Positions 37,144 to 52,342 of a DNA stretch of 64,000 nucleotides are shown in pieces; within the stretch, counting starts at the first letter, position 1, and every line of letters starts with the position of its first letter. Under the pieces are notes generated by a model. It was not told the origin of the DNA. It did not search any database and saw only the letters and a list, made by a program, of their open reading frames with translations. This DNA comes from Bradyrhizobium stylosanthis. GTDB lineage: Bacteria > Pseudomonadota > Alphaproteobacteria > Rhizobiales > Xanthobacteraceae. The DNA lies in the NCBI RefSeq assembly GCF_001641335.1, contig NZ_LVEM01000006.1:372300-436299 (forward strand), in the 5' to 3' direction. A program made the translations under genes and the position numbers.

Positions 37144-37458
37144 TTAACCCTGAGCCGGCAGCTCGATGGTGACGCCGGCCTTGCGGATCTGTTCGCGCAG
37201 ATTGCCCGGCTTGATCGCACCGTCGTCGCCGAGCTCCACCGGCGCGATATAGGGACCGATCGCGCCGACGTCATCGGCAACGGCCTCGGCAAGCAACGCC
37301 TTCGCCTCGTCGGAGTTGCGCACGATTGCGGCATCGGCCAGTTCCGCCGACCAGCCCTTGTCGGCCGTGCGGTAGACGACAATGCCGTCCCAGGTGCGGT
37401 TGGCGGTCACGATGGAGGGACCGGCGATCTTGATTTTCTGTTGCAGTGGGGAGGTCAT
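37144..37458 (-). CDS. DUF2849 family protein
   Basis: 104 residues, starts MTSPLQQKIKIAGPSIVTANRTWDGIVVYRT, a pattern I recognise as DUF2849, found in sulfite-reduction operons of alphaproteobacteria next to cysG and cysI. Function unknown; it could serve as a small accessory or electron-transfer partner for the sulfite reductase. No cysteine or membrane segment. It overlaps cysG by four bases and lies 11 bases before cysI. Confidence 0.9.
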   Translation of the reverse strand: MTSPLQQKIKIAGPSIVTANRTWDGIVVYRTADKGWSAELADAAIVRNSDEAKALLAEAVADDVGAIGPYIAPVELGDDGAIKPGNLREQIRKAGVTIELPAQG

Positions 37459-38879
37459 TCGGCAGCATCCAGGAGGTCAGAGATGATTTGTTTGGGTGTT
37501 TGGCGGCGAAGCGAGCCGGCATGCCGGACCACGTCGCCGATGATGAGGATGGCGGGACCGCCTTGGGTCCGCCGCACGAGCTCGGGCAGGTCACGCAGCG
37601 TGCCGATCGCGCCTTGCGCGTCGGGCCGCGTGACGCGGGCGAAGACGCCGACCGGGGTCTCCGGCGAGCGGCCGGCTGCGAACAGGCCGGCGCGAACCGC
37701 GGGCGCCGCGGTCATGCCCATATAGACCACGACGGTCATCCTGGTGTCGGTCAGCGTCGACCAGTCCACGGCTTCCGCGTCGCGCGCCTTGTGCGCGGTG
37801 AGGAAGGTGATGCGGGTCGCTTCGTGACGATAGGTGAGCGGCACCTCGAAATCGGCTGCGCCGCCGAGCCCTGCGGTGATGCCGGGGATGATCGAATAGG
37901 AAATGCCCGCTGCGCGCAGCGCTTCGACTTCCTCGCCGCCGCGGCCGAACACGAAGGGATCACCGCCCTTCAGCCGCACCACGCGCTGGCCGGATTGCGC
38001 GGCCTCGATCATGCGCTTGTTGATGGCGTCCTGGCCGATGCCCGGCTTGCCGACGCGGCGGCCGACCGGCACGCGCGTGGTATCGCGACGGATGCGGTCG
38101 AGAATTTCGGGCGAGACCAGCTCGTCGTGGAAGACGATATCGGCGTCCTGAAGGGCGCGCAGCGCCTTGATGGTGAGAAGGTCAGGATCGCCGGGACCTG
38201 CGCCCACCAGCGCGACCGAGCCTTCCGGCTTGTCCGCGCGTGCGAAATCGGAGGGATCGGCGATCGCCTTGAGCGACGCGTCCGCCTCGGCCTTACGGCC
38301 GGCGAGCACGGCGGCGCCGATCGGGCCGTCGATGACGCGCTCCCAGAAGCGGCGGCGCAGCGGAAACTCGGCAATGCGCTCGTTGATGGATTTGCGGAAG
38401 CCGCCGATGAACTCGGCGAGCTCGCCGATGCGCGCCGGCAGCAGCGCCTCGATCTTCTCGCGCACGCGGCGCGCCACCACCGGCGAGGTGCCGCCGGTGC
38501 CGACCGCGACCACGACGTCGCCGCGATCGACGATCGCCGGGAAGATGAAGCTGGAATGCTCGAGATCGTCCATGACGTTGACGGGCAGGCCGAGCGACTT
38601 GGCGCGGACCGACATGGCAACGCCGACATCGCCCGCGCCGGCGCAGACGATGGCGATGACACCCGAGAGGTCGGCGGTCAGCGGATCACCGGCCGCGATT
38701 TCGATGTGCGCGGCGGCGTCGGTGCCGAGGCCGAGATCATCATTGCCGTCGATCGCATGCACGCGAAGGCGCGCGCCGGCAGCAATGAGCACGCGCAGTT
38801 TTGCGCGCAAAAGCTCACCCGCGCCGATGAGGACCACCGGACCGGCCTTGAGATCGAGGAACACCGGCAAGAACCGCAT
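37455..38879 (-). CDS. cysG: Siroheme synthase (bifunctional)
   Basis: 474 residues with both modules. The N-terminal half (about 1-200) is the NAD-dependent dehydrogenase/ferrochelatase (LPVFLDLKAGPVVLIGAGELLRAKLRVL), the C-terminal half (about 215-465) is uroporphyrinogen-III methyltransferase (VALVGAGPGDPDLLTIKALRAL, VGKRGKPGI-like loop VGRRVGKPGIGQDAIN, RLKGGDPFVFGRGGEE). It makes the siroheme for CysI. First gene of the minus-strand operon; the divergent cysD starts 143 bp away. Confidence 0.95.
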   Translation of the reverse strand: MRFLPVFLDLKAGPVVLIGAGELLRAKLRVLIAAGARLRVHAIDGNDDLGLGTDAAAHIEIAAGDPLTADLSGVIAIVCAGAGDVGVAMSVRAKSLGLPVNVMDDLEHSSFIFPAIVDRGDVVVAVGTGGTSPVVARRVREKIEALLPARIGELAEFIGGFRKSINERIAEFPLRRRFWERVIDGPIGAAVLAGRKAEADASLKAIADPSDFARADKPEGSVALVGAGPGDPDLLTIKALRALQDADIVFHDELVSPEILDRIRRDTTRVPVGRRVGKPGIGQDAINKRMIEAAQSGQRVVRLKGGDPFVFGRGGEEVEALRAAGISYSIIPGITAGLGGAADFEVPLTYRHEATRITFLTAHKARDAEAVDWSTLTDTRMTVVVYMGMTAAPAVRAGLFAAGRSPETPVGVFARVTRPDAQGAIGTLRDLPELVRRTQGGPAILIIGDVVRHAGSLRRQTPKQIISDLLDAAE

Positions 38880-38907
38880 GCGATACTCGCTTCCCCCACA
38901 TCCGGGG

Positions 38908-38995
38908 TTGACTGGAATTATTTTCTATATATGTGTCGTTTCGAGCGCGCAAAGAGAAAATTTTTTCTTCTCTTCTGCACCGCAACTATAGAAAA
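38908..38995. promoter_or_regulatory. Divergent cysG/cysD control region with inverted repeat
   Basis: TTTTCTATA (38921-38929) and TATAGAAAA (38987-38995) form a perfect 9-bp inverted repeat around an AT-rich centre with its own dyad (AAGAGAAAA...TTTTCTTCTCTT). On the plus strand TTGACT (38908) and TATGTG (38930) have 16-bp spacing. The minus strand has TATATA about 50 bases before the cysG start. Operator of a CysB-like activator is an inference. Confidence 0.5.
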
Positions 38996-39022
38996 TTCGC
39001 CTCCAAACGCAAAGTGGCAGAG

Positions 39023-39910
39023 ATGCATCTTCTCAGGACCGATTCCGGTGCAGATGGACGGGACTTCCGCCCCGCCGTTTCCGAGCAAATTCCAGTCGGG
39101 CTGACCGCCCCCAGCATGGACCATCTCGACCAGCTCGAGGCGCAGAGCATCTACATTTTTCGCGAGGCGTTCGCCCGTCTGAAGAAGATCGCCCTGCTGT
39201 GGTCGCTCGGCAAGGACTCCAACGTCATGATCTGGCTGGCGCGGAAGGCATTCTTCGGAAAGATGCCGTTCCCGGCCCTCCACGTCGACACCGGCAAGAA
39301 GTTTCCGGAGATGTATCGCTTCCGCGATCATTACGGGAAGGAGTGGGAACTCGATCTGCGCGTTGAGCCCTGCCCGCCCATCGATGCCGTCGACCCAACG
39401 CTGCCGCCAGCCGCCCGTTCCGCCGCGCGCAAGACGGAAGGGCTCAAGATGGCGCTCGCCAAATACGGCTTCGACGGCCTGATCGCCGGCATCCGCCGCG
39501 ACGAGGAAGCGACCCGCGCCAAGGAACGCGTGTTCTCGCCGCGCGGCCTGGAAGGCAATTGGGACGTGCGCGACCAGCCGCCTGAGTTCTGGGACCATTT
39601 CAACGCCTCGCCGCCGCAAGGCGCGCACTTGCGCATTCATCCGATTCTGCATTGGACCGAGGCCGACATCTGGGCCTATACCAAGCGCGAGAACATCCCG
39701 ATCATCCCGCTCTATTTGTCGAAAGACGGCAAGCGCTACCGCTCGCTGGGCGATCAGGACATCACCAACCCCGTGAACTCGACCGCGTCGACCATCGACG
39801 AGATCCTGATCGAGCTCGAACAGACCAAGGTGCCGGAGCGTGCCGGACGCGCGCTCGACCACGAGACCGAGGACGCCTTCGAGCGCCTTCGCGTCGCCGG
39901 CTATCTCTGA
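39023..39910 (+). CDS. cysD: Sulfate adenylyltransferase, small subunit
   Basis: 295 residues. The PP-loop-type nucleotide motif reads LLWSLGKDSNVMIWLARKAF, followed by FPALHVDTGKKFPEMYRFRD, RDEEATRAKERVFSPRG and LGDQDITNPVNSTASTIDEI, all standard for CysD. With CysN it makes APS from ATP and sulfate. The start is not certain: ATG 39023 adds 31 residues to the conserved MDHLDQLEAQS, which begins at 39116 without a ribosome binding site. First gene of the operon with cysNC. Confidence 0.93.
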   Translation: MHLLRTDSGADGRDFRPAVSEQIPVGLTAPSMDHLDQLEAQSIYIFREAFARLKKIALLWSLGKDSNVMIWLARKAFFGKMPFPALHVDTGKKFPEMYRFRDHYGKEWELDLRVEPCPPIDAVDPTLPPAARSAARKTEGLKMALAKYGFDGLIAGIRRDEEATRAKERVFSPRGLEGNWDVRDQPPEFWDHFNASPPQGAHLRIHPILHWTEADIWAYTKRENIPIIPLYLSKDGKRYRSLGDQDITNPVNSTASTIDEILIELEQTKVPERAGRALDHETEDAFERLRVAGYL

Positions 39911-39931
39911 TCTCCAGGACGCGAGCGCGAT

Positions 39932-41848
39932 ATGAACATGATCGTCACCCCCTCTTCGTCCGCGACGCCGAACGGCACCACGCGACCGCAGGTCCGCATC
40001 GTCATCGTCGGCCATGTCGACCACGGCAAGTCCACGCTGGTCGGCCGCCTCCTGCACGAGACCGGCAGCCTGCCCGACGGCAAGCTCGAGATGCTGAAAG
40101 CCGTCAGCGCGCGGCGCGGCATGCCGTTCGAATGGTCGTTCCTGCTCGACGCGCTGCAGACCGAGCGCGACCAGGGCATCACCATCGACACCACGCAGAT
40201 CCGCTTCCGCACCAATTCGCGCGACATCGTGCTGATCGACGCGCCCGGCCATGCCGAATTCCTGCGCAACATGATCACCGGCGCCTCGCAGGCCGACGGC
40301 GCGGTGCTGATCATCGATGCGCTCGAAGGCGTGCGCGACCAGACGCGGCGGCACGGCTATCTCCTGCATCTGCTCGGCGTGAAGCAGGTCGCGGTCGTCG
40401 TCAACAAGATGGACCGCGTCGACTTCTCGGCCGACCGCTTCAAGGAGATCAGCGACGAGATCTCCGCGCATCTCAACGGCCTCGGCGTGACGCCGACCGC
40501 CGTGATCCCGATCTCCGCGCGCGACGGCGACGGCGTTGCCGAGCGCACCGACCGCATCCGCTGGTACAAGGGCCCGACCGTGGTCGAGGCGCTCGACCAG
40601 CTTGAGCCGGCGCGTCCGCTCGAAGCGCTGGCGCTGCGTTTGCCCGTGCAGGCGATCTACAAGTTCGACGACCGCCGCATCGTCGCGGGCCGCATCGAAT
40701 CCGGCAGCCTCACCGCGGGCGACGAGATCGTGATCATGCCGGCCGGCAAGATCGCAAAGATCAAGACCGTCGAGAGCTGGCCGGCGACGCCGGTCGAGGG
40801 ACGGCAGGGCGCGGGCCGCTCGGTCGGCATCACGCTCGACCGCGAATTGTTCATCGAACGCGGCGACATCATCGCGCATGCCGGCACCGCCCCGCGCGAG
40901 ACGCGCCGCCTGCGCGCGCGTATCTTCTGGCTGCACGACAAGCCGCTCGCCAAGGGCGATCAGCTCCTGGTCCGCTGCGGACCGAAGGAAAGCCGCGCTA
41001 CCGTCGTCGCCATAGAGAAGGCGGTCGATCCCGGCGAGCTGTCGAGCTCCGAGAACAAGGCGATCGGCCGCAACCATGTCGGCGAGATCGACATCTCGCT
41101 TTCGAATCCGATTGCCACCGATCCCTACACCGAGAACCCGCGCACCGGCCGCCTCGTGATCGAGGTCTCCGGGCGCATCGCCGGCGGCGGCCTCGTGCTG
41201 TCGGTCGATGCCGGCCAGCGTGCGGTGCCGGTCGACATCGTGCCGGTGGAATCGGCACTGCGGCCTGACGAGCGCTCGGCGCGCTATCAGCACAACGGCG
41301 CCGTGGTCTGGCTCACCGGCCTGCCGGCCTCCGGCAAGTCGACGCTGGCGAAGGCGCTGGAGCGGCGGCTGTTCACCAATGGCGGGTCGCCGATCCTGCT
41401 CGACGGCGACACGCTGCGCGCAGGCCTCAACAGCGATCTCGGCTTCTCCGCCACTGACCGCAGCGAGAACATCCGCCGCCTCGCCGAAGTCGCGACGCAC
41501 CTCGCCCGCAACGGCCACATCGCGATCGTCGCCGCCGTCTCGCCGGCGCGCGAGGACCGCGCCACCGCGCGCCGCATCGCCGACACCGCGTTCCGCGAGG
41601 TTCATGTCGCGACACCGGCCGAGGTGTGCGAGGAGCGCGATCCCAAGGGCCACTACAAGAAGGCCAGAGCCGGCGCGCTGGCCTCGTTCACCGGCATCGG
41701 CAACGACTACGAGCGGCCTGAGGCCGCCGAGCTCGTGATCGACACGTCGAAGCGGACGGTCGCCGAGGCAGCAGACGAGATCGAGCAGATGCTGAAGACC
41801 TCGGGCGTGCTGTTCGACGAAGTCGTGGACCTCGCCGCGAATATCTAA
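39932..41848 (+). CDS. cysNC: Fused sulfate adenylyltransferase large subunit/APS kinase
   Basis: 638 residues. The N-terminal half is the GTPase CysN (P-loop GHVDHGKST at 27-35, [28 protein letters not shown]) with EF-Tu-like beta-barrel domains up to about 440. The C-terminal part is APS kinase CysC (P-loop GLPASGKST at 463-471, [23 protein letters not shown]). The fusion (as in NodQ) makes APS and then PAPS. It follows cysD by 21 bases. Confidence 0.95.
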
Positions 41849-41890
41849 GGCACGCCGCCCCCTTGCGGGGCGGGTCCGAGCGAACGCCTC

Positions 41891-42018
41891 GTCCTTCGAG
41901 ACGACCGCTGCGCGGTCTCCTCAGGATGAGGCTAAGCCGCAGCTCAGCTTGCTGGAATTGCTGCCACATACTCCGCCCTCATCCTGAGGGCCCGCCGAAG
42001 GCGGGCGTCTCGAAGGAT
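41891..42018. repeat. Palindromic intergenic repeat, family G
   Basis: Left arm GTCCTTCGAGACGACC and CCTCAGGATGAG, right arm CTCATCCTGAGGGCC and GTCTCGAAGGAT. It fills most of the 5' part of the gene-free stretch 41849-42317; the rest (to 42317) holds the glcB leader with a weak TTGACA at 42172-42177 and no clear -10. Confidence 0.75.
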
Positions 42019-42317
42019 GGCCGCGGGCCGAGCGTCCCTCCACATTCTGCCGCACACGCGATGCCCTCCCCCGCAAGGGGAGGGGGCGCGGTTGCGCGCG
42101 TGGCGCGGATTTGGGCTCGATCAAGTTGGGCGGGACCGCGCTTGTAAAAAGCGTCACGCCCTCACCTCTTCTTGACATTTTGACAGACCTTTGGGGGTCT
42201 TCTCACCGCCCCGATTTTGGGGCTAATAGGTCCCGAAAGCCGCCCCCTGTGGGCGCATTTTGCTGCTGTCGGGTCAAAAGCAGCCAAAAACAGCCATTTC
42301 CAACAAGAAAGCCCATC

Positions 42318-44483
42318 ATGAAACGCGTCGACGCCCACGGATTGAAGATCGCACCCGTCCTGTTTGACTTCATCGCCAAGGAAGCGGCCCCGAAAACGGG
42401 GATCGCGCCGGATGCGTTCTGGGCCGGGGTTGCAGGCATCATCAAGGACCTGGGGCCGAAGAACCGCGCGCTGCTGGCGGTGCGCGACACGCTGCAGGCC
42501 AAGATCGACGACTGGCACCGGGCCAACAAGGGCAAGGCGTTCGACCTCGCCGCCTACACCGCCTTCCTGAAGGAGATCGGCTATCTCGTCCCGGAGCCGG
42601 CGACGCAGAAGGTCGAGACCGCCAATGTGGACGAGGAGATCGGCAAGATCTGCGGCCCGCAGCTCGTCGTTCCCCTCACCAATGCGCGCTACGCGCTGAA
42701 CGCAGCGAACGCGCGCTGGGGTTCGCTCTACGACGCTTTCTACGGCACCGATGCGATCCCGCACGACCCGTCCGAAGGCGGCAAGGGTTACAACAAGGCC
42801 CGTGGCGATAAGGTCATCGCGAAAGCAAAAGCGTTCCTCGATGCCGCAGCGCCGCTGGCGACCGGCAGCCACACCGACGTCACCGCCTATAGCGTGGTCG
42901 CGGGCCAGCTCGCGGTGAAGCTGAAGAGCGGCAACGCCACCGCACTGAAGAACGCCGCGCAGTTCGCCGGCTTCGAGGGTGAGGCTGCTTCGCCGAGCGC
43001 AGTGCTGCTCGTCAACAACGGCCTGCATGTCGAGGTGAAGATCGACCGCAGCAGCGCGATCGGCAAGGACGATCCGGCCGGCGTCGCCGACATGATCATG
43101 GAAGCCGCTGTCTCCACTATTCTGGACATGGAAGACTCGGTCGCCGCGGTCGATGCCGAGGACAAGGTTCTGGTCTACCGCAACACGCTCGGCCTGATGA
43201 ACGGCACGCTGTCCGCCGATTTCGAGAAGGGCGGCAAGACGCTGACGCGCTCGCTCAATGCTGACCGCAGCTACAAGACGCCGGACGGCAAGGGCGAAGT
43301 GAAGCTGCACGGCCGCAGCCTGCTCTTGATGCGCAATTGCGGTCACCACATGTTCACCGACGCGGTGCTGGACGAGAAGGGCGAGGAAATTCCGGAAGGC
43401 CTGCTCGATGCCGCCGTGTCCGGCCTGCTCGCCATCCACGATCTCAAGGGCAATTCCAAGGTCAAGAACAGCCGCACCGGCTCGGCCTATATCGTCAAGC
43501 CGAAGATGCACGGCCCGGACGAGGTGTCGCTGACATGCGAGATCTTCGACCGCGTCGAGAAGATGCTGGGCCTGCCCGAGAACACGCTCAAGGTCGGCAT
43601 CATGGACGAGGAGCGGCGCACCACCGTCAACCTCAAGGCCTGCATCCAGCGCGCCTCCAAGCGCATCATGTTCATCAACACCGGCTTCCTCGACCGCACC
43701 GGCGACGAGATCCACACCTCGATGGAAGCGGGTCCCATGATCCGCAAGAACGAGATGAAGGCGCAGGCCTGGATCAAGGCCTATGAGGACTGGAACGTCG
43801 ACATGGGCCTGATCGACGGCCTGCCCGGCCATGCCCAGATCGGCAAGGGCATGTGGGCCGCGCCCGACAAGATGGCCGACATGCTTCAGCAGAAGATCGG
43901 CCACCCGCAGGCCGGCGCCACCACGGCGTGGGTGCCCTCGCCGACTGCGGCGACGCTGCACGCGCTGCACTACCACCAGGTCAACGTCATCGCGCGCCAG
44001 CAGGAGCTGACCAAGGGCGGCCCGCGCGCCAAGCTCTCGGACATCCTCACCATTCCGGTGTCGAAGTCGAACTGGGCGCCCGACGACGTCAAGCAGGAGA
44101 TCGACAACAACTGCCAGGGCATCCTCGGCTACGTCGTGCGCTGGATCGACCAGGGCGTCGGCTGCTCCAAGGTGCCCGACATCCACGACGTCGGCCTGAT
44201 GGAAGACCGCGCCACCTTGCGCATCTCCAGCCAGCATCTCGCCAACTGGCTGCACCAGGGCGTGATCACCGAAGCGCAGGTGATGGAATCGCTCAAGCGC
44301 ATGGCCGTCGTCGTCGACAAGCAGAACGCGGGCGACGCGATCTACAAGCCGATGGCCCCCGCCTTCGACGGCGTCGCCTTCAAGGCCGCCTGCGACCTGA
44401 TCTTCAAGGGGCGCGAGCAGCCGAACGGCTACACCGAGTACATCCTCACCGCGCGCCGCCGCGAGGCCAAGGCGGCCGGTTGA
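42318..44483 (+). CDS. glcB: Malate synthase G
   Basis: 721 residues, the length of malate synthase G. Typical segments: [19 protein letters not shown], the central [40 protein letters not shown]-like site ([12 protein letters not shown]), [13 protein letters not shown]-like ([14 protein letters not shown]), and [22 protein letters not shown]. It condenses glyoxylate and acetyl-CoA to malate (glyoxylate cycle, glycolate use). No isocitrate lyase is nearby. Monocistronic, with a strong terminator. Confidence 0.97.
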
Positions 44484-44973: not shown

Positions 44974-45129
44974 CTAGAACACCGCGAGATATTTCAGCAG
45001 CGACACGATGCCGATGATGATGACGATCACGCGCGCGATCTGCTTGGCGCGGCCGTCCATCGGCAGCATGTTGATCAGATAAAGAACGAGAATGATGACG
45101 AGAAAGGTGACGAGTACGCCAACCAGCAT
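44974..45129 (-). CDS. Thivi_2564-type small membrane protein (51 residues)
   Basis: Translated from the minus strand: starts MLVGVLVTFLVIILVLYL, has the polar turn NMLPMDGRAKQIARV and ends with a second helix, IVSLLKYLAVF. Two membrane helices with a short loop are all it contains. I recall this as the Thivi_2564 family of small membrane proteins, of unknown function. GGGGG precedes the ATG. It stands alone before the first chemoreceptor gene. Confidence 0.8.
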   Translation of the reverse strand: MLVGVLVTFLVIILVLYLINMLPMDGRAKQIARVIVIIIGIVSLLKYLAVF

Positions 45130-45251
45130 CGCGAAGCCCCCTTCTGGCAAGTTGCGAACGTTATCTTAACGCTCGTCTCGCGCGCTGGTTCCATCGCCGC
45201 AACCCCCTGCAACTTCTAGTAAATACGTACTTCTACCGTAGAGCGGGATGC

Positions 45252-45270
45252 CTAAAACTTTACCCTTTTC
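45252..45270 (+). promoter_or_regulatory. Conserved upstream box of chemoreceptor 1
   Basis: CTAAAACTTTACCCTTTTC matches CTAAGTTTTTACCCTTTTC (49228-49246) upstream of chemoreceptor 2 in 16 of 19 positions, at a similar distance (about 130 bp) from the start codon. A promoter or operator role is inferred from conservation. Confidence 0.4.
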
Positions 45271-45402
45271 CTTTCACATGCGGAAACCGTTTGGGCCTTG
45301 AAGCGCAAACGGCATGTGATTGCTGATTCTTGCAGGCCCCATCCTTTTTCGCTCGTTGCCGGGGCGCTTCGCGAACTTCGATTTGGGAATTGGGGGACTT
45401 CG

Positions 45403-47496
45403 ATGCTGAACCGTCTGACCGTATCCACACTGCTGAAGGCGGTGATCGCGATCACGTCGGCCTGCGTGGTGATTGCGCTCTCGCTCACCGCGTATGAGTC
45501 CTGGGATCGGTTGAGGACCGCGAGCCGCATCTCGCAGATCACGGATGCGTCCGCCGACCTGTTCAAGGCGATGCACAATCTGCGCACCGACCGCTCGACC
45601 ACCAACCGGCTCCTCAATTCGACCGAGCCGATGGACGCCGAGATCGAAAAATATCTGCGCGCGATCCGGGACGCCGAGATGCCGGCGATGGCCCACGCGC
45701 TCGAGCTGCTGCCGGCGATGGACTTTCCGCAGTCCACCTCGCTGGTGCCGGAGTTCGCGCGGCTCTACAAAACGGCCAGCGAGCAGCAGAAGCAGTTCTG
45801 GGAGGACGTGGCCAAGCCGAAGGACCAGCGCCGCGCGAGCCTGCCGAAGGACTACATGGAGACGACGCAGGGCCTACTCGACACGCTCGACAAGCTCTCG
45901 AATGCCCTCGCCGCCACCGTCAACCACCAGGACGCGACGATCGACCAGCTGCTGTCGATCAAGCAGAACGCCTGGCTGCTGCGCAACACGGGCGGTGAAG
46001 CCTCGCTGATCATCTCGACCGGGCTCAACGCAGGCCGCATCACGCCGGAGACGCGCATCGCCTACACCCAATTCGTCGGCGGAACGGCCGCAATGTGGAA
46101 GGCGCTGGAATTGTCGACCTCGGGCATGCAGCTGCCGCCGGCCCTGTCGTCGGCGATGGCCGCGGCCAAGAGCGCCTATTTCGACCCGCAATATCTGGCG
46201 CTTCGCGATCGCCTCGCCAACACGCTCGCCAATGGCGAGAAGGCCGAAATGACTGCGAACCAGTGGACCCCCGTGACGGTGGGCCGCCTCTCGAGCGCGG
46301 TCGCCGTCGCCGAGACGGCACTCGACGCCGCCAAGAGCCATACGTTGGAGCAGCGCAGTGCCGCGCTGCGCGCGCTGATCGTGCAGCTCGTGCTGCTCGC
46401 GCTCGCCGTCGGACTTGCCGTCGGCGCGATCATGCTGGTCAGCCGCCGCGTGATCCGTCCGCTCAACACCATCCGCGACGCCATGCTCAAGGTCGCCGGC
46501 GGCGACCTTGCGGTCGACAGCGGCTATCTCGAGCGCCAGGACGAGATCGGCGCGCTCGCCGGCGCGCTGGAGACCTTCAAGCAACAGGCGACCGACAAGC
46601 TCAAGATCGAGGCGCACGAGCGCGAGCGCAATGCCGGCGCTTCCGCGCGCCAGCGCGCGATCGAAGGCTATGTCGGCGAGTTCGAGGGCATGGTCCGCAA
46701 GACACTCGGCGAGTTGAGCGAAGCCTCCGGCGCGATGCGCAAGACCTCGGGCGATCTGTCCGCGGTCTCGCGCCAGACCAACGACCGCGTGCAGGTCGCG
46801 GGCAAGGCCTCCAATGACGCCTCCATGAGCGTCGACAGCGTGGCCGCGGCCGCCGAAGAGCTCTCGGCTTCGATCAACGACATCAGCCAGCAGGCGGCCC
46901 ATGCCGCCGGCATCGCCAGCCGCGCCGTCAACCAGGCCCGCGAGACCGACGGCACGGTTCAGGGGCTGGCCCAGTCCGCAGGACGCATCGGCGAGGTCGT
47001 CGGCCTGATCAACACCATCGCGGCCCAGACCAATTTGCTCGCACTCAACGCCACGATCGAGGCGGCGCGCGCCGGTGAGGCCGGCCGCGGCTTCGCCGTG
47101 GTCGCATCCGAGGTCAAGTCGCTGGCCAGCCAGACCGCGAAGGCGACGGAGGAAATCTCCGGGCAGATCGCCGACATCCAGAAGGTGGCGAGCGACGCCA
47201 TCAACGCGATCCAGACCATCGGTGGCATCATCGGCGAGGTGAACGAGGTCGCCACCGCGATTGCCGCCGCCGTGCAGGAGCAGGGCGCGGCGACGCAGGA
47301 GATCACCCGCAGCACGCAATATGCGGCGCAGGGCACCAAGAACGTCTCGGACAACATCACCGGCGTCAAAGCCGATGCGGACGCCGCCGCTGCGGCCGCC
47401 GACAACGTGAAGAGCGCCTCCGAGACGCTGGAGAGCCAGAGCCGCCAGCTCGGCCACGAGGTCAGCGACTTCCTCGGCAAGATCCGCGCGGCGTAG
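45403..47496 (+). CDS. Methyl-accepting chemotaxis protein 1
   Basis: 697 residues. Membrane helix 1 (about 9-32), a periplasmic mostly helical ligand-binding region (about 33-320), helix 2 (about 325-347), a HAMP domain (to about 400) and the cytoplasmic signalling domain (about 440-697). The hairpin tip carries [28 protein letters not shown], the CheA/CheW binding region. It would feed chemotaxis. No CheR/CheB pentapeptide is at the C-terminus. The ligand is unknown. It is a near duplicate of the gene at 49375, most strongly in the C-terminal half. The start at 45403 (MLNRLTVS) is chosen for the TM1 and for agreement with the paralogue. Confidence 0.95.
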
Positions 47497-47663
47497 GTTG
47501 CGGGCTCCAGACGGAGCTATCGCTACGCCCTGAACATCGTCCCCGCCTGGTGCACAATTGCGCAGAGGCGGGGCCGAAAGAACCTACATCAACGCAATAG
47601 CCCAGTTCTTGGTGTTGTTGAATTCTGGCGCCACGACGGTGTCAGGATGCTGCGGAGCGCAGG

Positions 47664-47888
47664 CTACGGACTTGTGGGCTTAAATTGCGAGTCGGGGTCT
47701 TCAACGACCTTGGCGAAGAACATCTTCTGCAACGCGATCCCACCATATTGCATTCCAAACTCAACGACATGGGCAGTCACAAAGTCGCGGTTTGGGCGCG
47801 GTGGTATCTTCATGGTTGCCACCTCGATTGCGCGCTCAAGCGTCGCCGCAACACCTTCAAATACGAGAGGTCCATCATAGCTGGGCAT
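47664..47888 (-). CDS. Graspetide-operon third gene, 74-residue unknown protein
   Basis: 74 residues beginning MPSYDGPLVFEGVAATLERA, with an amphipathic helix (ATLERAIEVATMK), then RPNRDFVTAHVVEFGMQYGG and FFAKVVED, predicted to be beta strands; it ends FKPTSP. It overlaps the ATP-grasp gene by 14 bases and is the last gene of the three-gene operon. The helix-strand-strand order vaguely recalls dodecin-like folds, but I do not recognise the family. It has no TTxxxxEE motif, no signal peptide and no membrane segment. A role as ligase partner or free-standing recognition element is possible speculation. Confidence 0.7.
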   Translation of the reverse strand: MPSYDGPLVFEGVAATLERAIEVATMKIPPRPNRDFVTAHVVEFGMQYGGIALQKMFFAKVVEDPDSQFKPTSP

Positions 47889-48759
47889 CGATCTCGTCTC
47901 CTCGTTTTGTTAAATGATCCAGGATGGCATCGCACAATCGTCCATCGCTGACCCGATCGAACGCGGCAAACATCGGCTGGGTATTGATTTCAAGAAAGTA
48001 AAGTTGCCCGGTCTCATCGCGCATGAAGTCGGATGCCGAAAAATCGAGGCCGAGCATCGTGGCGAGACGTTGCAACGGTTCGACGACCTCGGCATGAACT
48101 GCGCATGGCTGAATCGTCACGTCTTGCGCGCTGCGATAGTCAAGAGCCTGAGACGAGAGCTCGTAGCCGAACAACGCGTCGCCAACCTGGTAGATGCGAA
48201 CTTCGGGGCGGAGCAGCCGCCGCTGGATGAAGCGCGGAAATTCTGCAGCCACCTGGTCTCGCGATTGGACGTGATCGCGGAGCGTCGTCGTCAGACTGCC
48301 TCCAGCGACCGGCTTCTGGATGAGGTCCTCGTCGCTCTCGTTGAAGCTGTCCAGGTCGTTGGTAATAATAGTCGGTGGAATTGGCAGTCCGCAGCGCCTG
48401 GCTAATAGCAAATTCTCGATCTTGTTGTTTTCGCTCGAGTATGATCGGCGATTGAGTAGGCGCATTGCAGGGCTGCTGAGAACATATCCGCGCACGGTGA
48501 AATACCAATTGAGCGATGCCGCGCTGTCGTGCGCCGAGCGTGTTGCCTCGTGCAAGAATACGTCGTGACGGATAAAGCAGGACGTTGGTGACAGCAGAAT
48601 TCCGTCGAGCGTCAGCGTCTGACGCTCGATATCAAGGTGAATGCGCGGTCGCAGCTGGGGACCGACTAACAACTCTTTGAAACTTTCCCGCCGCTGCAAG
48701 CAGCGGCGAAGTAGCGCTCCGATATTGGGATCGAGCTGTCCACCTGCAACGAGAAGCAT
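47875..48759 (-). CDS. ATP-grasp ligase, probable graspetide cyclase
   Basis: 294 residues from ATG 48759 (MLLVAGGQLDPN); a longer TTG start at 48792 would overlap the precursor by 23 bases. ATP-grasp features: pre-domain end ENLLLARRCGLPIPPTIITND, the ATP-lysine strand DLIQKPVAGGSLTT, FPRFIQRRLLRPEVRIYQVGD with VFGYEL-like strand, and the Mg-binding end LDFSASDFMRD and FLEINTQPMF (Glu and Asn). This is the RimK/MvdD-like branch that forms bonds between side chains. The neighbouring TTxxxxEE precursor argues for macrocyclic ester formation (graspetide). Lines counted by eye are about 50% GC, against about 63% in the chemoreceptor. Confidence 0.85.
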   Translation of the reverse strand: MLLVAGGQLDPNIGALLRRCLQRRESFKELLVGPQLRPRIHLDIERQTLTLDGILLSPTSCFIRHDVFLHEATRSAHDSAASLNWYFTVRGYVLSSPAMRLLNRRSYSSENNKIENLLLARRCGLPIPPTIITNDLDSFNESDEDLIQKPVAGGSLTTTLRDHVQSRDQVAAEFPRFIQRRLLRPEVRIYQVGDALFGYELSSQALDYRSAQDVTIQPCAVHAEVVEPLQRLATMLGLDFSASDFMRDETGQLYFLEINTQPMFAAFDRVSDGRLCDAILDHLTKRGDEIDAQL

Positions 48760-48769
48760 AGGTGGCGGC

Positions 48770-49048
48770 CTAGCGCTTGTCCTCTTCGCCAACGGCCTTG
48801 GTGGTGATCGGCGGGTCTTCCTCGCCGATTGCTAGCGTCGTGACGACGTTGTTTTCTTCGTTGAGTGGCAGGGTTGTAATCGGCGGATCCTCCTCACCGA
48901 TCGCTTTAGTCGTGGGGCCACCCGACATGTGGATCGGCCCTTCCTCGCCCACTGCCATCGTCGTAACGGGCGGATTCTCCTCGCCAAGGGCTAGCGTAGT
49001 AATGGGTGGAGATTCCTCGCCAATCACGAGCGTCGTCACGTCCGCCAT
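48770..49048 (-). CDS. Graspetide precursor, seven TTxxxxEE cores, no leader
   Basis: 92 residues. After MADV, seven core units start at residues 5, 17, 29, 46, 58, 70 and 82: TTLVIGEE, TTLALGEE, TTMAVGEE, TTKAIGEE, TTLPLNEE, TTLAIGEE, TTKAVGEE. The period is 12 residues except after unit three (17, with insert PIHMSGGP). Linkers are mostly S/N/D-PP-I/V. TTxxxxEE is the core motif of plesiocin-type graspetides, in which an ATP-grasp enzyme esterifies Thr side chains with Glu side chains. Strikingly, there is no N-terminal leader; an in-frame TAA lies just five codons upstream, and AGGGGAGGG precedes the ATG. The repeats are exact to the nucleotide period (36 bp). Confidence 0.88.
   Translation of the reverse strand: MADVTTLVIGEESPPITTLALGEENPPVTTMAVGEEGPIHMSGGPTTKAIGEEDPPITTLPLNEENNVVTTLAIGEEDPPITTKAVGEEDKR
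48773..49036 (-). repeat. In-gene tandem repeat encoding seven core peptides
   Basis: 36-bp units, with one 51-bp unit (third). Each encodes TT-x-x-x-x-EE plus a linker. Copy number may vary between strains. Confidence 0.85.
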
Positions 49049-49065
49049 GAAGCCCTCCCCTTATG

Positions 49066-49080
49066 ATCGTCCCGGACGAT
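49066..49080. promoter_or_regulatory. Perfect inverted repeat before the graspetide precursor
   Basis: ATCGTC-CCG-GACGAT, 6-bp arms, 17 bases upstream of the precursor ATG; either an operator or an mRNA hairpin near the ribosome binding site. The remaining gap up to 49374 holds the chemoreceptor 2 leader and no gene that I can support. Confidence 0.4.
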
Positions 49081-49227
49081 AACACAACTTAAAAGGGAAT
49101 CAAACGGGAAGCTCGCCGCGGGGGCAGGCCCGGTGCGGTCCAGGTGGGCCTCGCAACTCGCATCAAAGATCGGTGGCGGTCGGACAACGGCAGGCCGACG
49201 CCCGTAATTTTACGGCAGGAACACTGT

Positions 49228-49246
49228 CTAAGTTTTTACCCTTTTC
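49228..49246 (+). promoter_or_regulatory. Conserved upstream box of chemoreceptor 2
   Basis: CTAAGTTTTTACCCTTTTC, the counterpart of 45252-45270, 129 bases before the start codon. Confidence 0.4.
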
Positions 49247-49374
49247 GGGCCAAATGCGTTCCAGACGCGTGCGCCAGGGCACGCGCGTCTGCGCGCATCC
49301 CTTTGGTCGTTCGAAGTTCGTTGGGGGCTGCCGATTGGGGGCCACGAACTTCGAAACGCGTACCGGGGTGTCCA

Positions 49375-51468
49375 ATGCTCAACCGCCTGACCGTATCCAC
49401 GCTGCTCAAAGCGGTGATCCTCTCGACCGCGCTCGTCGTGGTCATCGGCTTCTCGATCAGCGCCTGGAGCTCATGGGGCCGGCTGCAGCAGGCCAACCGG
49501 ATCGTCGCGGTCTCCGCGGCCTCGGCTGAAGTGTTCAAGGCGATGGCCAACATCCGGGCCGACCGTTCGACCAGCAACCGCCAGCTCACCTCCGACGTCC
49601 CGATGGACAAGGACATCGAGAAATACATCCGCGACATTCGCGAGGCCCTGATGCCCGCGCTGGCGCGCACGCTCGAGATCCTGCCCACCACCGATCTCGC
49701 CCAGCGCGATACTTTCCTCGCCGAACTCGGCACGCTGAACAAGACGCTGCTCGCGGCGCAGGCCGAGTTCTGGATCGAGGCTCTCAAGCCCCGCGCCGAT
49801 CGTCGCGCCGGCCTTGCCAAGGAGTATGTCGCCACCGAGGATGCGCTGATGGCGCAACTCGAGAAGCTCTCCGGCGCCCTCGCCGCCAGCGTCAATCACC
49901 AGGATGCGACCATCGACCAGCTCCTGACCATCAAGCAGATGGCATGGCTGCTGCGCAATACCGCCGGCGAATCCTCGCAGATCGTCGGCAACGCCCTCGG
50001 CAGCGGCAAGATCGCGCCCGAGGTGCAGCTCGCCTACACCAAATTCGTCGGCGGCACCGACGCCGCCTGGACCGCGATCGAGCTTGCCGCCGCGGGTATG
50101 CAACTGCCGCCGGCGCTGGCCTCGGCGATCACCGAGACCAAGACGACCTATTTCGACCCGCAATACGCCGCGACGCGCGACGGCGTCATCGCGACGATCG
50201 CCAAGGGCGAGAAGCCGTCGATGACCGCCAACCAGTGGAGCCCCTATTCGGTGCCCCGCATGATGACCGCCGTGAGGCTCGCCGACGCGGCCCTGCAGGC
50301 CGCCAAGGACCATTCCGCCGCCCAGCGCGCGACGGCCGTGCAGTGGCTGATCATCAACACCGCCCTGCTCGTCGCCGCGATCGTCCTGACCGGCGCTTCC
50401 ATGCTGGCCGTCAGCCGCCGCGTGATCACGCCGCTGCACCGGATTCGCGACGCCATGCTGAAGGTCGCCGGCGGCGATCTCGCGGTCGACAGCGGCTATC
50501 TCGACCGGCACGACGAGATCGGCTCGCTGGCGGGCGCGCTCGAGACGTTCAAGCAGCAGGCGATCGACAAGCTCAAGATCGAGGAACAGGAGCGCGAGCG
50601 CAACGCCGGCGCCGCCGCGCGTCAGCGCGCGATGGAGGCCTATGTCGGCGAGTTCGAGGGCGTGGTGCGCAAGTCGCTGGGCGAGCTGAGCGAAGCCTCC
50701 GGCGAGATGCGCAAGACCTCGGGCGACCTCTCCGCGGTGTCGCGCCAGACCAACGAACGCGTCGAAATCGCCGGCAAGGCGTCCAACGACGCCTCCATGA
50801 GCGTCGACAGCGTGGCCGCCGCCGCCGAGGAACTCTCGGCCTCGATCAACGACATCAGCCAGCAGGCGGCCCATGCCGCGGGCATCGCCAGCCGCGCCGT
50901 CAATCAGGCCCGCGAGACCGACGGCACCGTGCAGGGGCTGGCGCAGTCCGCAGGACGCATCGGCGAGGTCGTCGGCCTGATCAACACGATTGCGGCGCAG
51001 ACCAATTTGCTCGCGCTCAACGCCACGATCGAGGCGGCGCGCGCCGGCGAGGCCGGACGCGGCTTCGCCGTGGTCGCCTCCGAGGTGAAGTCCCTGGCCA
51101 GCCAGACCGCGAAGGCGACCGAAGAGATTTCCGAGCAGATCGCCGACATCCAGAAGGTCGCGGGCGATGCCATCAACGCGATCCAGGCGATCGGTGGCAT
51201 CATCGGCGAGGTCAACGAGGTCGCCACCGCCATCGCCGCCGCCGTACAGGAGCAGGGTGCGGCGACGCAGGAGATTACCCGCAGCACGCAATATGCGGCG
51301 CAGGGCACCAAGAACGTCTCGGACAACATCACCGGCGTGAAGGCCGACGCCGACACCGCGGCCGGCGCGGCAGACAACGTCAAGCAGGCCTCCGAGACAC
51401 TGGAGACGCAGAGCCGCCAGCTCGGCCAGCAGGTCAGCGATTTCCTGGGCAAGATCCGCGCGGCGTAG
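49375..51468 (+). CDS. Methyl-accepting chemotaxis protein 2 (paralogue)
   Basis: 697 residues, same architecture and exactly the same length as the gene at 45403: TM1, periplasmic helical domain, TM2 (about 325-347), HAMP, signalling domain. From about residue 480 the two proteins are almost identical (e.g. [15 protein letters not shown] and [19 protein letters not shown]), while the sensory halves differ more, so they probably recognise different ligands and share the same signalling output. The start at 49375 (MLNRLTVS) matches its paralogue. The graspetide-type operon lies between the two. Confidence 0.95.
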
Positions 51469-51508
51469 GGCTGCGGATTGGATAGAAAGCTGTAGCCGCT
51501 CCCTCGGT

Positions 51509-51649
51509 GTCGTCCCGGCCTAGTGCGCAATTGCGCACGGGGGCCGGGACCCATACCCCCAGGGAGAAGTTGCGGCGCGAGCTGCCAACCACGAGTCATC
51601 GCCAAACCACGTCCTGTGGCTATGGGTCCCGGCCTGCGCCGGGACGACG
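51509..51649. repeat. Palindromic intergenic repeat, family C copy 3
   Basis: GTCGTCCCGGCCTAG on the left, GCGCCGGGACGAC on the right, inner GGGACCCATACCCCCAGG and TATGGGTCCCGG. Same family as 15119 and 24889. Confidence 0.8.
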
Positions 51650-51694
51650 GCGGTAATTTAGGCGCTGGCGGCGCCCGCAACTCGATACCGCCCC

Positions 51695-52342
51695 CTACTC
51701 CTTCGCCACCACCGGGACCTGGCGGAATTTGGCGCGGACCGACTCCGGCAGCGGCGAGAAATTCACGGCGACGCCGCGGCGGTCATTGGCGCTGCGGTTC
51801 GCGACCACGAGGCCATCGCTGCCGGCAACGATGTCGCCCTTGCGCAAGGTGGGGTCGTCCTCGACCTTGACCTGGGCGAGACCAACCGGGTCCTTGCCGT
51901 TGCAGGTGCAGCCGGCGACGATCTCGTTGCGATAGCGGAACGCGTTGGGCAAGTCGGAATAGGATTTGCCCCTGTCCGTCGTGGCGTCGTCGATGTTGCT
52001 GCCATAGACCAGCGAGGTTTCAGACGCCGGGCAGAAGCTCTTGCAGGACTGCGCCTTGCTCTCGGCATCGTTGCCCTGCGCCGGGAAGTAGCGACCGTCG
52101 CAGCCGCGCACGCAATAGGCGGTGCCGCCGCCATAGGCGGCGCGCCGGGGCTGGTCGTAGCGTGGCATGTCGTCATTGGGGAACGGGACGCGGATCTCCG
52201 GCGGCGGCCGCATCCGGAAGCCGCCGAACAATTGCGAGAAGAAATCCTGCGCATGCGCCGGCGGCGTCAGGGCGAGGCCCAGCGATGCGACGGCGAGGAA
52301 AGCCGCCGCGCCAGCCGGTTTGCTCATCGAACGTCTCTGCAT
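51695..52342 (-). CDS. DUF2865 secreted cysteine-containing protein
   Basis: 215 residues: signal peptide (about 1-31, ending PPAHA), a Pro/Arg-rich linker, and a DUF2865 domain with AYCVRGCDGRYFP, CKSFCPAS and NEIVAGCTCNGKDPVGLAQ, holding six cysteines. The family is common in Bradyrhizobiaceae and has no known function; the cysteines suggest disulfides in the periplasm. It lies just downstream of the L,D-transpeptidase gene (19 bases), so the two may form an operon. Confidence 0.88.
   Translation of the reverse strand: MQRRSMSKPAGAAAFLAVASLGLALTPPAHAQDFFSQLFGGFRMRPPPEIRVPFPNDDMPRYDQPRRAAYGGGTAYCVRGCDGRYFPAQGNDAESKAQSCKSFCPASETSLVYGSNIDDATTDRGKSYSDLPNAFRYRNEIVAGCTCNGKDPVGLAQVKVEDDPTLRKGDIVAGSDGLVVANRSANDRRGVAVNFSPLPESVRAKFRQVPVVAKE

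Follow-up and report, generated by a model that had tools for sequence, protein, structure and literature searches.

Plesiocin-type graspetides have TTxxxxEE cores and one ATP-grasp enzyme that joins the Thr hydroxyl to the Glu carboxylate, and an N-terminal leader that guides the ligase is typical of graspetides, albeit not defining. Graspetide synthetases have been described as phosphorylating the acceptor carboxylate and then directing a hydroxyl or amine donor onto it (PMC13097080). The product plesiocin consists of ring-within-ring hairpins, with a potency as protease inhibitor that rises with unit number (PMC13097080), and in the precursor AMdnA a single chain carries three cores (PMC5934393). 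Here we describe a locus in a 64-kb window (the whole stretch of Bradyrhizobium stylosanthis DNA that was analysed, from a genome of 8.8 Mb) that, judging from its sequence, quite likely encodes a graspetide (omega-ester RiPP) system with no need of a leader, its ligase belonging to a distinct proteobacterial clade.

Layout and setting of the operon

Three minus-strand genes between positions 49048 and 47664 form a compact operon in the order precursor, ligase and 74-aa protein. The first (48770..49048), defined by its ORF, unit count and alignments, encodes a leaderless precursor peptide of 92 aa with seven TTxxx(G/N)EE units; the second (47875..48759) encodes an ATP-grasp ligase of 294 aa, of the graspetide-synthetase kind by family scores, alignment, structure searches and a tree; and the third (47664..47888) encodes an accessory protein of 74 aa with a predicted dodecin-like fold, characterized through homologues in Ruegeria and on Rhizobium plasmids, a structural model and a fold search. 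The genes overlap or nearly touch, as initially annotated: the ligase ATG at 48759 sits 10 nt past the precursor stop, and the 74-aa ORF overlaps the ligase end by 14 nt. Since eight close relatives align with the window ligase at the motif M-I-L-V/I-A-G-G, this ATG is a better start than the TTG at 48792 taken by the ORF finder, which we rejected; the ligase starts of loci L014 and L042 were set by hand at the same motif.

The TTxxxxEE units of the precursor begin at residues 5, 17, 29, 46, 58, 70 and 82, a start-to-start spacing of 12 residues that widens to 17 between units 3 and 4, i.e., a 3+4 split. All 14 Thr and all 14 Glu residues of the peptide lie inside units, and the Thr and Glu codons vary from unit to unit. 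Among 100,000 residue shuffles of the precursor the maximum was three units, compared with the seven of the real peptide, which rules out chance as the origin of the repeats, and in a six-frame check of the window these seven were the only ones present. The seven cores claimed for the first gene in the first-pass annotation are therefore borne out.

The operon lies between two tandem plus-strand genes for methyl-accepting chemotaxis proteins (45298..47496 and 49144..51468), both named by eye, the ORF-finder start of the second being probably too far upstream. Genome comparison indicated that the stretch between them (approximately 47498..49190) is missing in three of four related genomes, where the chemoreceptor gene gap is 16, 18 and 235 nt versus about 1.69 kb in the window; the fourth differs upstream. 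The GC content of the operon is 0.57 versus 0.67 for the flanking chemoreceptor genes (0.60-0.71 versus 0.88-0.89 at third positions), and no orthologue was found in 264 other genomes of the genus. The simplest reading is that the operon was probably acquired. No mobile-element mark was found, the insertion edges showed no convincing repeats, a defence-system search gave no match, and matches to phage families were weak (E 0.0004 for the ligase and E 0.12 for the third protein). A search of positions 45000-52000 gave no Rfam match, and promoter and terminator patterns in 47400-49400 showed no excess over shuffles. Elsewhere in the window, positions 37455-44483 hold siroheme synthase-, CysD-, CysN/CysC-type sulfate activation- and malate synthase G-like genes, by their translations.

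Ligase relatives were sought at several taxonomic levels (the genus, family, class and phylum counts include the window's own genome). Matches were obtained in 12 of 265 genomes of the same genus at E 0.001, the other 11 being 26-33% identical over partial coverage; in 37 of 391 genomes of a family draw, with identity above 45% only in the own genome and at L013 and L014; in three of 385 genomes of the class at E 1e-15; and in five of 349 genomes of the phylum at E 1e-20. Three of 43 genomes in the genus of G454 had a match at E 1e-20, which was distant in one case, and a single scan of genome contigs returned six loci. A plasmid search gave 19 records, none of which covered 80% of the ligase, and viral contigs contained no relatives of either the ligase or the third protein. 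Rare as it is, the operon may not be expressed, though its reading frames are intact.

Family membership of the ligase

The ATP-grasp ligands K, E and N, said to be in place when the locus was first annotated, correspond to K149, E257 and N259, which are invariant in all nine aligned ligases. Equally invariant is D207-Y208-R209, a DYR at the place of the published DFR motif that has been named critical in graspetide synthetases (PMC13097080). Against NCBIfam, the ligase scored best with the graspetide maturase models (69 bits for TIGR04187, 45 for MvdC and 41 for MvdD), followed by the non-peptide glutamate ligases MptN (30) and RimK (25), all scores falling below the curated cut-offs, and far below in the case of the maturase models (69 of 350 bits for TIGR04187, 41 of 475 for TIGR04184 and 45 of 425 for TIGR04185). 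A profile of nine ligase sequences matched eight sequences of solved structure at E 0.01, of which the top six, all RiPP-type ATP-grasp ligases and named from structure titles, were PsnB, AMdnB, CdnC, PruB, MdnB and MdnC; the remaining two were ArgX (E 0.006) and a repressor (E 0.01), the latter taken as chance. In addition, the best 15 Foldseek matches of an AlphaFold model of the ligase (pLDDT 84.5) were all PsnB, at about 22% identity.

A ligase tree of 23 rows placed the window within a 9-row clade (98/98) and an 11-row clade (99/96) near annotated graspetide synthetases; the other graspetide synthetases together with a few further ATP-grasp rows formed a group with weak support (82/67). 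Both outgroups of this single build, RimK and DdlB, are long branches that meet, and the split from them (93/87) was not starred. Because L049 and 34 loci with weaker ligases (L002-L012, L016-L038) were left out of the tree, the clade may have further members. By its sequence, the window ligase is a relative of graspetide synthetases, and a RimK-type identity was rejected on family scores and tree. The comparison with graspetide cyclase families suggested in the first-pass annotation thus came out on the side of the maturase models, with a clade apart from RimK and DdlB; and instead of the RimK-type grouping and unconserved precursor that the annotation had held to speak against its reading, we found that split together with a TTxxxGEE precursor at every clade ligase.

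RimK adds Glu to ribosomal protein S6, and the window ligase might similarly add residues (e.g., Glu) to the EE side chains, the spacing between TT and EE then being structural only. The fold is common to both kinds of enzyme, and the near-equal VIA Z-scores of the ligase model with PsnB (22.2) and RimK (21.9) mean that the fold alone does not decide between them; the glutamate ligase models MptN and RimK also gave scores, albeit weaker ones. Residue addition is nevertheless very improbable, given that sequence scores and tree alike point to a peptide macrocyclase and that all 14 Thr of the window precursor stand in TT pairs before EE, a pairing that is found clade-wide and would be needless for glutamylation.

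Leaders and the constant unit

A precursor with TTxxxGEE lies immediately upstream of all 11 clade ligases, the window included. L039 and L041 have a single unit, the others two to eight strict ones, and position 6 is Gly in 54 of the 55 TTxxxxEE units from 12 precursors (the 11 of the clade and that of L015). As a control, open frames with two units were sought at 44 loci and found at eight, namely seven clade members and L015, and at none of the 34 loci with weaker-matching ligases. The gene arrangement that marks graspetides, an ATP-grasp ligase next to a small precursor with conserved donors (Ser/Thr/Lys) and acceptors (Asp/Glu), is thus found in the window and at 10 of 10 other clade loci.

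What precedes the units varies. Four precursors have double-Gly leaders, as judged by eye (L042, L043, L039 and L041); those of L013 and L014 have Lys/Arg-rich ends; that of L048 has a Nif11-like leader, under the Pfam cut-off; that of L072 has about 130 residues ahead of its units that match no Pfam family; and in the window, Ruegeria (L044) and Lysobacterales (L040) precursors nothing precedes the units. A C39-peptidase motif, by which an exporter was named, occurs in the flanks of the double-Gly loci L042 and L043; it is absent from the 64-kb window and from the eight other clade loci, the double-Gly L039 and L041 included, the flank covered being only about 1.5 kb at L013, L014, L048 and L072.

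Several features of these and neighbouring loci may be recorded here. The Lys/Arg-rich stretches at both precursor ends of L013 (1074-1472) and L014 (1003-1470) resemble nucleic-acid-binding or tethering tails, and the 337-aa precursor of L072 (2395-3408, minus strand) has many TTxxxGEE-like repeats, seven of them strict, beside a divergent clade ligase. Two small class II bacteriocin-like peptides, one with a double Gly, are encoded at L043 (6625-7233) between the ligase and an HlyD/C39 exporter pair that was named by eye. The precursor at L015 (594-1010, minus strand) has an N-terminus judged by eye to be Tat-like, then two TTQALGEE units and one variant; it is divergent from a ligase that belongs to a different graspetide branch. 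ATP-grasp genes also neighbour a second repeat type, (I/L)TTKT....E.DD, at L054 (2512-3690; a Sinorhizobium americanum plasmid) and L074 (633-2103; another proteobacterium), and the two ligases group together in the tree.

For the window precursor, in which the first Thr is residue 5, start codons and the upstream frame were searched for an N-terminal leader, and it is absent. A AGGGGAGGG stretch lies 5' of the precursor ATG, and the in-frame TAA four codons above this ATG means that the choice of start codon cannot hide a leader. The open codons between the in-frame stop and the ATG number four in the window, two in Ruegeria and 13 in the Lysobacterales, none being ATG, GTG or TTG, and the first Thr of the latter two precursors is residue 7. 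The first-pass annotation had presented an ordinary plesiocin-type system; its TTxxxxEE repeats stand and PsnB is the best solved match, but the leader of such a system is missing. That annotation did not mention the missing leader, and was equally silent on the 3+4 repeat split, the low GC content and the site between two chemoreceptor genes.

Alignment of the three leaderless precursors matches each unit to its counterpart, the other two being 65% and 68% identical to that of the window. The full gene trio recurs in Ruegeria sp. EL01, and window and Ruegeria proteins are 64% (precursor), 47% (ligase) and 48-49% (third protein) identical, versus 30-35% identity at third codon positions over the three genes (30% in the precursor), indicating that all three have been kept as proteins. 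In each of the three leaderless precursors the spacer is at an equal place (3+4 or 4+4 units) and the last unit is ITTKAxGEE. An internal or follower recognition site might accordingly lie in the central spacer or in the ITTKA unit at the C-terminus, and a graspetide leader relocated to the C-terminus is reported to be still functional (PMC13003496); such a site is possible but doubtful, as this layout is absent from other precursors of the clade, those with one or two units.

We favour recognition of the unit. In other graspetide branches the leader tracks the ligase phylogeny and the cores are variable, according to a published account (PMC8939145), so that the pattern read from the clade sequences is the reverse: a constant unit and a variable N-terminus. 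This reversal suggests that the ligase reads the unit and that the N-terminus serves export, and the clade ligases probably read the TTxxxGEE unit itself, with leaders serving export. Whether the fuller picture holds is evenly balanced: a clade of naturally leader-independent synthetases that would read the unit alone, leave the N-terminus free as an export or tethering module, have a dodecin-like partner in some members, and make, in the leaderless form, a stapled intracellular repeat protein.

The third protein, the putative product and known systems

The third gene had been called a 74-residue unknown, and its ORF (47888..47664) is indeed present and had no Pfam match when sought up to E 10. 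Neither was there a match among solved chains to a profile of four third-protein sequences up to E 10, and the only NCBIfam match, a methyltransferase (E 0.046), was taken as chance. A homologue about 49% identical is encoded downstream of the Ruegeria ligase, and relatives occur on Rhizobium leguminosarum plasmids, where the neighbours are a tyrosinase and a multicopper oxidase at L051 and a LodA/GoxA-type oxidase at L052, with no TTxxxxEE units around them; a remnant is present on a Rhizobium indicum plasmid. The homologues at L051 (3983-4198) and L052 (3986-4195) lie in stretches in which no graspetide ligase is annotated. Among 297 genomes of the order, a third-protein profile found only the window's own genome. 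The third gene was found beside only one of the 10 other clade ligases (Ruegeria), which marks it as an accessory part that is not generally needed.

Modelling gave a strand, helix, strand, strand order in the model made from two sequences (pLDDT 74; 49-66 for the other four models). The best 10 Foldseek matches of this model were dodecins (E 0.019, probability 1.00, about 18% identity), and dodecins made up most of the best 18 VIA matches (Z 5.7, rmsd 3.6, 60 residues aligned), where a Z below 8 may reflect a common arrangement only. The model thus points, with low to moderate confidence, to a dodecin-like protein, adding a candidate partner-protein family that lacks a Pfam match.

This protein, or a peptide encoded elsewhere, might supply the missing leader in trans, which would make the system a leader-dependent one after all. 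Its gene is 3' of the ligase both in the window and in Ruegeria, a microviridin ligase can be activated by a leader peptide in trans (PMC5934393), and rosaritide requires a partner protein (PMC13097080). We consider a leader in trans unlikely, however, because the Lysobacterales operon is also leaderless and has no third gene within the 10.9 kb examined, and because the third protein is predicted to be a compact fold, not a lone helix.

On our preferred reading, in which no leader takes part, the ligase would recognize the TTxxxGEE unit, or else some other portion of the repeats, and phosphorylate Glu side chains of the units with ATP. Thr hydroxyls would then attack Glu of the same unit, giving up to two esters per unit and 14 in total (about -252 Da). 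The product would be the entire peptide, probably without its initial Met, with seven stapled hairpins in a 3+4 row, either kept in the cell or exported, and the 74-aa protein may assist as an oligomer by binding the ligase or the product. By analogy with plesiocin, the product may be a protease inhibitor, and its seven units, in which TT is followed by Leu, Met or Lys, would be consistent with a multi-headed one. If this proves true, the ligase could serve as a portable tool for crosslinking proteins through a TTxxxGEE tag, no leader being required, and the leaderless system makes the share of the core in graspetide recognition directly testable.

Plesiocin (group 2; PsnB) resembles the window system in its TTxxxxEE repeats, its one ATP-grasp ligase and its repeated hairpins, which are predicted for the window, and PsnB, which is outside the tree, is the best solved match of the window ligase, at about 22% identity; the window system differs in having no N-terminal leader, a near-invariant Gly before EE and an extra third gene. 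The microviridin-type systems (MdnB/MdnC, AMdnB/AMdnC) share the ligase family and the predicted acyl-phosphate chemistry, but have a conserved PFFARFL leader (PMC8939145) and cage-like rings, whereas the window precursor is leaderless. The third protein is like dodecins in its predicted strand-helix-strand-strand order and length of about 70 aa, but has no Pfam match and only about 18% identity. Extra small or unknown proteins, as in the window operon, are described for the partner-dependent rosaritide and corallotide (PMC13097080), although MirC is SurA-like, not dodecin-like as is predicted for the third protein.

Within the part of the open-licence literature that was searched, there was no natural leaderless graspetide and no clade whose N-termini are swapped around a fixed unit. 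The chemistry and the family are already known, as are leaderless precursors in lasso peptides (PMC13003496). The latter are likewise natural leaderless RiPP precursors with leader-independent enzymes and loss of the first Met (PMC13003496), but belong to another RiPP class with other enzymes. Finally, published groups 34 and 35 also have long repeat precursors (PMC13097080), and these groups could include the window clade.
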